Positions 28,994 through 37,630 of a DNA stretch of 64,000 nucleotides are shown piece by piece; the first letter of the stretch is position 1, and every line of letters begins with the position of its first letter. The notes below the pieces were generated by a model, which was not told the DNA's origin, searched no databases, and saw nothing but the letters and a program-made list of their open reading frames with translations. The translations under genes and the position numbers were made by a program. The DNA comes from Henricia sp. BOLD:AAB3569 (lineage: Eukaryota > Echinodermata > Asteroidea > Spinulosida > Echinasteridae), in the NCBI GenBank assembly GCA_037783545.1, contig JBBELK010001442.1, forward strand, positions 1 to 64,000, written 5' to 3'.

Positions 28994-29483
28994 ATGGAGA
29001 AGCAACAATTCCAGTTGAAGACGCAACCGACGATCGCACAGTATCACACTGCACGTCAAGTTAAACCTAAAGGGGAATGGCAGTTTGATGAACCACGGTT
29101 AGACGTGGACGATATCCAGGGAGACGCGCTCTTGGGCTTTAATAAGCCTCATCTTGCTATTCTGGCTCTAAACATTGCTGATGACACCCAAGCAAGTATC
29201 CAAAATACCAAGAAATGGTTGTCTGATGACGTCATTCCAAGCGTGACTTCAGCAAGAGATGTTCTGCAGTTTCGTGACATGTTCCGCATGATGCGTGCAA
29301 GACGCAGCGGTCTTAAGCCGTCTACGGTGGCTCAGATTTGCTTCAACGTTTCCTTTTCCTACGAGACCCTTCTCATGTTGGCTCCTGAAGATGACGTCAA
29401 GAAGTTCTACCAGCCGAGTGTTAACGTGGCCTTCAAGGTTGGTTTGCCGGCCCGCTCGACCTATCTCCACGATCCCAAAACAG
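28994..29483 (+). CDS. DyP peroxidase coding exon 1
   Basis: 163 codons plus one base. Acceptor TTTTACAG at 28,984-28,991; donor CAG|GTAACC at 29,484. Holds the N-terminal ferredoxin-like half: [25 protein letters not shown], and GLPARS before the donor. Confidence 0.85.
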
Positions 29484-35400: not shown

Positions 35401-37630
35401 CCAGTGGCAAGGTGCCTTAGTGTCACTGCCAGTTTCAGTCCAGGTGAGAGGCGACCCTCTGCAAGACTTCATCGAAGAGCTGTGGTGTTAACCTTGTGTA
35501 GTTTTGGAACGCTACTGGATCCTCCAGCCTCAATTGGGTGTGGTGTCTAGGAGGCTGGAGAACTAGCCAAGCTGTTGTCTCCTCCCCTCTGTGAGCCATG
35601 GTCGCACCCAGAACTGCCTGACTGCAGCTCTCCTGGCCCTTTGTGGTTGGGGTTGTGGCTGGTCTATCTGGCTGCTGCTCGTCTTCTTCTTCTCTGGCGA
35701 TAATGTAAGCATACAGTAATACTGCAAATGTCACGTTGTCGGTTATTGTGGGTTGTAGTCTTCACTCTGTAGAAGTTCAAGAAACAATGAAGTCCATGGT
35801 CAGTCGGGCTGTATATATACCCGTCGGGGTCCAATCGTGGCTGAAATCGTGATCACTCTCGATCCCGATCGTGAAAGACATCGCGACCACAATCGTATCC
35901 GATCGCAACAGAGCGTATCGGTTCGTGATGATCGTATCGGAATGTATCGGAACGTATCGGGACGTACCAGATCGTCCCAAATCGGGGATCCCGATCGTGA
36001 TGATCGTGTCAGATCGGGACCCAATCTGGAAAATCCTATCGGAACGTATCTGAACGGGAGCCCAGATCGTGACAGATCGTGTCACCTGAAATTGACCAAT
36101 CGTGACTATATCTCATTCAAGCGCACCAAATCGACTCGCATCAACTCGTATCCAAACGTGAAATTTCAAAAAAGGTAACAAAAATTCCACGATTAGCTAC
36201 GAATGGGCAATCGTGGCGTTCGTAACGGATCGCACGACAGTGGGAACCTAGCATTAGATTACAAGAGCTCACACGATGTTAACACGTTCTAGTGCGATCT
36301 GCCACGAATTTTACAAAATGTTCAATTCTTGTTAGATCGTGTTGAGATCGTGCTCCTTGTGACTGGGCTATAAGCTATCTTTCACAAGTGTTTCCTCCCC
36401 ATGTAATGTTTCTAGATCGTTTCTGCGAGTTGGTCTGGACTCGGCCCATCTATCATAAATTACGTACTATGCAATATTTCATGCTTCCAGATCGCTTCTG
36501 ACCGTGCCTGTTTGATTCAAGAGGAAGTAACTAAACTTTCTGAGGGACTGGCATCTCTGAATCACCCAGCAAAGATTACTTACCAAGAATACGGCAAGCG
36601 GCGTGAGGATCTGCCTGGGCATGAGCATTTCGGATTCCTAGATGGTATCAGTAACTTCGGTGCTATGTAATCATCTACATGGTATCGAACGGCTTCGTGC
36701 ACTAAGCTAACACTTCCACGATCTCTCTTATACTAATATACACATAATCAATGTTTATGAGTGCAGCCATACGAAGCGAAGCCGAGTGGAATAGAACATT
36801 CAATCCGTACTACTGCACGAATTGTAAACACTCTGGGAGGACGCCGCATGTAGGCATGGTGGCAATATGGTGTTCTATGATCAGTTGATCACCACGTGCA
36901 TGCATGATGCAAGGAAAAGCGACATAGAGGAATTTGCGTAATTCTGTGCAGTGTAAATGAAGTGCAGTGTAATCTTATAATGTGAAGAAATTCAAATCAA
37001 GGAAACGTGAAAATTAACATCATCACACGAAAGTCACTAGTAGATCTAGGCTCATAGAAATATTAAGTTACGATGGCAGTTTGGGGCAGTAGCCCGAATA
37101 CCACCCGGAATGTCCATTGTTTCGCGCTTTAATGAGAATGGATTCGCCGTTTATGACAATGTTAACATTTTGTTTAGATCACATCTTTGCCAAGTCACGT
37201 CTTTGGACAATGTTCCAAGAAGGGTGGTTATTCAGTTGGTGTTTTCCTGCAAAGCATCAGTTTACAATTTTAAGATATACAGTCCGTGGCTCTCAGCAAA
37301 TTATATATTTTGTTTTCTCCGAACGAATTTTTAAAGCATTTACTTTATTTTAACCAAAAGAAAAACAAACATACTTTGTACTTTAGACATCGACAACCAT
37401 GTGAAAAACGCCGTTTTTATTTTGTTTAATTTGCAGAGGCACATATACAAATCAGAATACCGGCCAAGAGTCGTACGTGACGCCAAGATTTCTGGATGAG
37501 AATGACCCACGATGCGCTCTGTATGGTCTACCGGGACAGCGACTGTTATGGCCTGGGGAAGTTATCTTGGGTCTCACCAAGCAGAATGCAGATACGACGG
37601 ATCCCGATGAGGCTAATCGGCCTGGATCAT
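28994..37630 (+). CDS. DyP-type heme peroxidase, four coding exons, 3' part not found
   Basis: Dye-decolorizing peroxidases use H2O2 and heme to oxidise phenolic and dye-like substrates. Coding exons 28994-29483, 31095-31156, 36491-36650 and 37439-37630 join in phase (ending in phases 1, 0, 1, 1) to 301 codons without a stop. Seen: DIQGD at residues 40-44, [15 protein letters not shown] and HILIQIASD spanning exons 1-3, and [12 protein letters not shown] with the distal Asp at about residue 235 of the GxxDG motif; exon 4 adds [16 protein letters not shown]. These match bacterial/fungal DyPs. The C-terminal domain (FLVFRRL block, proximal heme His) was not seen, so the gene either continues past an unseen exon or is truncated. 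ATG 28994 lies two bases after a TTTTACAG acceptor, implying an upstream 5' UTR exon. No signal peptide is visible. Confidence 0.85.
29577..29744. mobile_element. MITE of the CTTCGGCAGTCTAT family (copy B), in DyP intron 1
   Basis: 168 bp with inverted ends ATAGACAGCTGAAGTG and CACTTCGGCAGTCTAT; complementarity runs about 50 bp inward. A further partial copy starts at 29,764. Confidence 0.82.
29745..31094. other. Rest of DyP intron 1
   Basis: Non-coding. Includes repeat scraps: CCGTGTCCCTGTGCTTTTTA (29,790, part of the MITE family), ACCATGGCAACCCACGTCAC (30,600) and GTGCACCACATAACAAC (30,747), the last shared with 51.8 and 52.1 kb. Confidence 0.55.
31095..31156 (+). CDS. DyP peroxidase coding exon 2
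   Basis: 62 bp. Acceptor ACATCAG|GAGAAGG, donor ATTCAG|GTGGGT. Encodes [20 protein letters not shown](Q), matching the W...G...H.LI strand of the family, in phase with exon 1. Confidence 0.82.
31214..31465. mobile_element. MITE in DyP intron 2
   Basis: Inverted ends TTAGCTTTTTTAAAAGTATG and CATACTTCTAAAAGGCTAAT; complementarity (AGGAGGGCGCA / TGCGCCCTCTCC) continues to about 60 bp. Confidence 0.75.
33045..33572 (+). pseudogene. Gln/Pro-rich accessory ORF of the Harbinger element
   Basis: A + frame with a basic start ([20 protein letters not shown]) followed by [18 protein letters not shown], a TAG stop at 33,252, and a Pro/His/Thr-rich second part in overlapping frames. Its position opposite the transposase fits the second (Myb-like/nuclear import) gene of PIF/Harbinger elements, but no Myb motif is visible, so the assignment is positional. 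Confidence 0.4.
34408..35734 (-). pseudogene. HARBI1-like PIF/Harbinger transposase (DDE_Tnp_4)
   Basis: Reading 5' to 3' on the minus strand: [16 protein letters not shown] (35.5 kb), [14 protein letters not shown] text, a TAG near 35,297, [16 protein letters not shown] (first Asp), a frameshift near 35,160, and then a 274-codon frame. That frame has [16 protein letters not shown] (second Asp, residue 100), the [20 protein letters not shown] block (Glu, residue 137) and an acidic tail. It would cut and paste the surrounding element. The stop and at least two frame changes mean this copy is inactive, though the DDE residues are kept. Confidence 0.88.
36491..36650 (+). CDS. DyP peroxidase coding exon 3 (catalytic loop)
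   Basis: 160 bp. Acceptor GCTTCCAG|ATCGCT, donor ATCA|GTAACT. Reads [13 protein letters not shown] and then [12 protein letters not shown]; the Asp of GFLDG is the distal acid-base residue in DyPs. Separated from exon 2 by a 5.3-kb intron filled by a Harbinger element. Confidence 0.88.
37439..37630 (+). CDS. DyP peroxidase coding exon 4
   Basis: 192 bp. The acceptor is taken as TTGCAGAG|GC, so the split codon is AGC and the motif reads DGIS as in the family. A TTGCAG two bases upstream would break the phase. Donor CAT|GTAATA at 37,631. Contains [16 protein letters not shown], matching the family's QPGQDLLWPGEF block. Confidence 0.8.

Follow-up and report, generated by a model that had tools for sequence, protein, structure and literature searches.

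The first 64,000 bases (the window) of contig C1442 (JBBELK010001442.1; 87,540 bases) of the sea star Henricia sp. BOLD:AAB3569, whose assembly comprises 740.7 Mb in 2104 contigs, carry on the forward strand the N-terminal half of a dye-decolorizing peroxidase (DyP) gene, distributed over four exons between positions 28994 and 37630. We lean towards the view that this locus is a single-copy, intron-bearing animal gene which descends from a bacterial-type C/D DyP by an old acquisition, has lost its C-terminal half and does not specify a working heme peroxidase. A bacterial-type large DyP gene would have entered the animal lineage, presumably from a bacterial donor, and the acquired gene would then have lost the half that carries the proximal heme histidine and the distal arginine. 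The acquisition is regarded as old because the gene has at least three introns and has diverged to about 40% identity, while the loss of the C-terminal half is probably recent or still under way, since the frame is intact over 307 codons. As predicted from its sequence, the locus encodes the N-terminal ferredoxin-like domain and the distal aspartate loop only and should make no working heme peroxidase; what persists is probably a remnant, broken or put to a new use, and not a functional enzyme.

The four exons were recognized by a bacterial N-terminal profile, run against the separate open frames of the window (3157 open reading frames). Exon 1 (28994..29483) contains the ATG, the DIQGD motif and most of the N-terminal ferredoxin-like domain (E = 4e-29), exon 2 (31095..31156; 62 bases, 20 residues) reaches only E = 0.07 on its own and aligns to a conserved W-x-V-G-(A/G) block, exon 3 (36491..36666) encodes the GFLDGIS catalytic aspartate loop (E = 1e-13), and exon 4 (37437..37630), the last recognisable DyP exon, encodes the LLWPGE block (E = 2e-11). 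Such profile scores cannot be due to chance. With GT-AG borders and the exon 3 donor AT/GTAATC (the slash marking the junction) the exons join in compatible phases into 307 stop-free codons. The joining and the independent profile matches thus confirm the four exons and phases proposed in the first-pass annotation, and the DIQGD, GFLDG and LLWPGE blocks that it had listed are all present in the joined protein; its uninterrupted frame also holds, but its length of 301 codons has to be corrected to 307.

The splice donors were scored with a hand-entered matrix against a background of 667 GTs (median -4.8 bits, 90th percentile -0.04). Exons 1 and 2 have donors of 3.3 and 6.2 bits, while those of exon 3 (-2.2 bits) and exon 4 (-0.4 bits) are weak, yet above the background median. 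Two alternative donors for exon 3, CA/GTAACT and CG/GTGCTA, score -2.9 and -3.5 and were rejected as no better than AT/GTAATC, which in our reading alone preserves the alignment length. As aligned, the exon 3 junction is supported by homology, not by splice strength. At the 5' end, a pyrimidine tract followed by AG resembles an acceptor (TTTGTTTTACAG, 28980..28991, forward strand, read by eye just 5' of the ATG). The last base of this good-looking acceptor, TTCTTTGTTTTACAG, is 28991, which leaves two bases to the ATG; the exon therefore probably begins at this point, and there may be a further 5' exon upstream of it. At the other end, exon 4 stops immediately before the expected place of an NGSFLVFRRL block. 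Reading through its donor adds 49 further codons (37631..37779; open reading frame 37405-37779) to a TAA, and without onward splicing of exon 4 the protein would terminate at this stop (37777-37779). A search of positions 37630-39600 for the poly(A) signals AATAAA and ATTAAA gave a single one, ATTAAA at 38866.

Membership of the DyP family, as first suggested for this locus, is supported by several matches. The joined protein matches the Pfam domain DyP_N (PF21105) at 3e-11 with 44.2 bits (cut-off 27.5), its best match in the PDB is the ancestral D-type DyP 7anv (6.5e-11), and 17 plasmid records match it, with a Mycetohabitans DyP as the best (38.8% identity, 1e-34). The NCBIfam DyP superfamily model stays under its cut-off (E = 0.0032), as expected because only half a protein is present. 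The GxxDG loop with the distal catalytic aspartate appears as GFLDGIS, and the aspartate column is invariant over the 20 rows of an alignment with bacterial relatives. In the whole genome DyP_N has one match, which is exon 1. The A/B-type domain PF04261 matches neither the joined protein nor anything in the whole genome. As PF21105 matches and PF04261 does not, the gene is filed with the C/D (large) DyP types on the grounds of its domain matches.

The C-terminal half is the part that would have to be found for a working enzyme. We take the proximal histidine to be that of a HIRKxNPR block and the distal arginine to be that of an RRGIPYG block, both of which sit in the C-terminal half in the 20-row alignment. 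The proximal ligand histidine and the conserved distal arginine belong to the DyP active site as it is outlined in the literature (PMC4420034). Profiles of the C-terminal half stayed at noise level throughout: a six-sequence profile peaked at 4.7 bits in the window, and the highest scores were 4.2 bits over the whole of C1442 and 4.5 bits on the allelic contig C447 introduced below. As a control for these contig scans, the C-terminal halves of six DyPs, including two from fungi, were cut into pieces and counted as detected above 10 bits; all pieces of 45 residues (32/32) and of 60 residues (24/24) and 37 of the 49 pieces of 30 residues were recovered, among them pieces from distant fungal DyPs. 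Genome-wide, a full-length bacterial query matched only exons 1, 3 and 4 together with the copy of exon 4 on the allelic contig, and the C-terminal Pfam domain PF20628 has one match, in a different gene on contig C64, its sensitivity to C/D-type C-termini not having been gauged. Neither the proximal histidine block nor the distal arginine block was detected on C1442, on C447 or in the genome-wide searches. The further 3' exons with the proximal histidine and FLVFRRL, which had been expected to follow, were undetected on both allelic contigs, where the control proved the scans sensitive, and in the 740.7 Mb assembly. The first-pass annotation had named absence of the C-terminal half from the genome as a ground for giving up its proposal; as regards a working peroxidase, this is largely what was found.

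From window position 37160 on, C447 (94.8 kb) runs parallel to C1442 in four blocks of 99.66-99.96% identity, broken only by insertions of 3.7, 5.0 and 8.8 kb that C447 alone has, and therefore looks like the other haplotype. The first 7680 bases of this alignment contain three differences, all outside exon 4, which is identical between the two contigs. Downstream of the last DyP exon and on the same strand (+), C447 carries at about 71-90.4 kb pieces of RMDN3 (regulator of microtubule dynamics protein 3). When five of them are joined, they match the Pfam family RMD1-3 (2.1e-27) and the RMDN3 structure 7cc7 (3.4e-27). The probable first RMDN3 exon, judged by eye, is an open frame at 64,871; Pfam, run on just the first two RMDN3-like frames, this one included, gave nothing of note.

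These data bear on the alternative that the gene is a complete, working C/D-type DyP whose 3' exons are hidden by an assembly gap or separated from exon 4 by a very long intron with RMDN3 inside it. The intact frame, the good conservation that extends to the catalytic aspartate loop, the plausible junction at the end of exon 4 and the break of both contigs in this region (C1442 at 87.5 kb, C447 at 94.8 kb) are in its favour. Still, we consider it unlikely, although the strongest of the alternatives, as the C-terminal half was undetected genome-wide and on two allelic contigs, one of which extends 94 kb past exon 4, with sensitive contig scans, and the donor of exon 4 is weak. Exons beyond RMDN3 would moreover require this gene to be nested, on the same strand, in their intron.

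Several observations weigh against the loss of the C-terminal half that we favour. Twelve of the 49 control pieces of 30 residues were missed, so exons of about 20 residues, the size of exon 2, could escape. The genome-wide search with the C-terminal halves of two bacterial DyPs (from Cyanosarcina and Thermoanaerobaculia) gave no match, but no positive control from this genome accompanies it. Equally without a match in the genome, the pattern RRGIP(Y/F)G is blind to variants and to motifs split by introns, and a gap or collapse among the 2104 contigs could conceal exons. The GT that closes exon 4 occupies a natural spot before the next block, as though another exon followed. Lastly, an old pseudogene would not be expected to retain an intact frame and conserved residues. 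The weak donors and the lost half, on the other hand, argue against a healthy enzyme. The most economical reading is a recent truncation of a gene acquired long ago.

The condition of the remaining half was assessed against 60 bacterial rows, 26 near-copies among 86 having been excluded. At columns conserved in at least 80% of these rows the window gene keeps 39 of 47 residues, a fraction of 0.83 that is near the low end of the range of the bacterial rows themselves (0.76-1.0; 7 of the 60 keep less). At the 34 columns conserved in at least 90%, four residues are changed, and three of these changes (Q239N, P240F and R243I) cluster at the end of exon 3, adjoining its weak donor. The N-terminal half might be read as a selected stand-alone protein without heme, which would end at the stop at 37777-37779 or on an unrelated 3' exon. 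Its 307 intact codons, the conserved columns kept, the in-frame stop 49 codons past exon 4 and the identity of exon 4 on both allelic contigs are compatible with this possibility, to which we give slightly under a fifth of our belief; the three changes clustered beside a weak donor speak against it.

A second DyP is present in the same genome. On the 3.55 Mb contig C64, which also bears a Wnt gene, an uninterrupted open frame of 1078 residues at 83894-87127 (+; loci L104 and L106) combines a DyP C-terminal domain (4.9e-26) with a pyruvate-formate-lyase-like glycyl radical domain (2.6e-96). Among known structures its DyP domain is closest to short DyPs, such as YfeX (5gt2). A plasmid protein of Asticcacaulis can be aligned to 94% of the fusion with 31.5% identity. 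Fusions of DyP and pyruvate-formate lyase have been described in Chaetomium (PMC5041501); the C64 gene is of this kind, as is the Asticcacaulis protein, while the window gene is not. That the window locus would be a selected half DyP with a non-peroxidase role, beside this separate DyP-glycyl-radical fusion, seems doubtful. The C64 fusion itself is as good a lead as the window gene.

With respect to origin, relatives were collected from 84,980 prokaryote genomes, in which 177 stretches fit the search patterns, 93 of these encode relatives and 80 were kept; among viral contigs 36 stretches fit a pattern, and none is a relative. The highest identity to a bacterial sequence is 42% in a four-row alignment, 39% in the 20-row alignment and 41% in the trees, and the N-terminal half shares 27-39% identity with the 19 bacterial rows of the second. 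A quick tree was built from 90 rows, consisting of the window gene, three fungal chains transcribed out of PDB alignments and 86 bacterial rows, and a careful tree from 60 of these, after 30 near-copies or long branches had been dropped, including L083 and L084, the neighbours of the fungal chains in the quick tree. The careful tree places the window gene within a clade of Acidobacteriota, Planctomycetota and Pseudomonadota with a support of 98/95 and an end branch of 1.32, and in the quick tree it groups with the same five bacterial rows (Shimodaira-Hasegawa-like approximate likelihood ratio test, SH-aLRT, 92). The end branch is 1.1-1.3 across both trees, the gene being diverged.

The old horizontal transfer that the first-pass annotation had offered as one explanation is in this way favoured as far as a bacterial origin is concerned. 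An origin shared with the fungal D-type DyPs, by transfer from or via fungi, is less well placed in these trees: the three fungal D-type rows fall elsewhere in both free trees, and in the careful tree keeping them apart improves the likelihood by 18.3 log units. A forced clade of the window gene and the fungal D-type rows was nevertheless not rejected among the bacterial and fungal rows used (approximately unbiased test, AU, p = 0.148), which tells against a purely bacterial descent, and the best PDB match is an ancestral D-type; we hold a fungal route to be improbable.

Simple bacterial contamination or misassembly is rejected as highly improbable: although all relatives found are bacterial (prokaryote and plasmid collections, with PDB chains as the only eukaryotic sequences covered), the gene has introns, a transposase in intron 2, retroelement-like domains in its flanks and an allelic contig with RMDN3, and its top bacterial identity is 42%. 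The host is an animal nuclear genome, as evident from the introns, the animal neighbours and the 51 matches of the assembly to Wnt (PF00110), which we take to be an animal-specific family, and the earlier conclusion that an intron-bearing gene in such a genome is no simple contaminant is upheld.

The half encoded in the window aligns nearly over its full length with bacterial C-type or large DyPs, such as those of Mycetohabitans endofungorum (WP_076788110.1), Cyanosarcina (L007) and Thermoanaerobaculia (L009), with which it shares the DIQG, GHEHFGF-DG-S and WPG blocks. Unlike them, it is interrupted by three introns, resides in an animal and has no detected C-terminal heme half. With the fungal D-type DyPs (7anv, 6fsl and 4au9) it shares the DyP_N domain, and with 6fsl also GISN, but these chains are full length, and the trees separate them from the window gene, though not significantly. 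Among the bacterial relatives, five of the six annotated plasmid loci (L001, L002, L003, L004 and L005) have a hypothetical gene directly upstream of the DyP gene, on the same strand and overlapping or at most 5 bases away, which is likely a conserved partner of bacterial DyP.

The window gene had also been suggested to represent a little-described animal lineage of the family. As a novelty this does not stand, as animal DyPs have been published. According to the respective papers, DyPs seem to have expanded in Platyhelminthes and are absent from vertebrates (PMC2764848), the DyP of Schistosoma mansoni is a DyP-B acquired by transfer (PMC4420034), Dyp is listed among the antioxidant enzymes of Clonorchis in a figure legend (PMC3125140), and a mussel spot was matched to a 33 kDa dyp-type peroxidase-like protein of Trichoplax (PMC5302490), a size from which we infer a B-type protein. 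The same superfamily includes the B-type DyP of Schistosoma and the C/D-type gene of the window. PMC4420034 also assigns DyP-C to proteobacteria, actinobacteria and cyanobacteria, and the DyP-D known to it is confined to basidiomycetes and ascomycetes. Two further animal papers add no animal DyP: one on Dreissena has the name only in a cited title, and the DyP in one on a beetle belongs to its gut microbes. In the open-access literature searched, as far as its accessible extracts go, neither a C/D-type DyP nor a half gene was found in an animal.

Other elements accompany the gene. Intron 2 contains on the reverse strand a DDE transposase frame of PIF/Harbinger-like type (34408..35238; PF13359, 8.7e-25), flanked by imperfect inverted arms; an open frame at 35435-35761, without a family match, may belong to it. 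The flanks of the gene carry retroelement-like domains. At 8258-9058 (-) a TatD DNase piece adjoins a helix-hairpin-helix piece on the same strand, and the two possibly represent one animal gene with both domains. Inverted copies of a 21-base minisatellite, about 95% alike including their flanks, lie at 43693-44122 and 54043-54452, with repeated strings in frame on both strands. On C447, the block ends at the three insertions overlap by 2, 5 and 5 bases, resembling target-site duplications, and the 5 kb insertion carries an open frame of 1458 residues that is retroelement-like by eye; the insertions are probably mobile elements polymorphic between the haplotypes. The same contig holds at 72397-76110 a long satellite with a unit of about 23 residues, in which either strand can be read for about 900 codons without a stop. 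Rfam and tRNA scans gave no match.

Cumulatively, a large bacterial-type DyP appears to have reached an animal genome and to be present there with introns, which goes beyond the B-type animal DyPs published so far, and its heme-binding half has apparently been lost. The locus thereby offers a test case for the decay or reuse of acquired redox enzymes.

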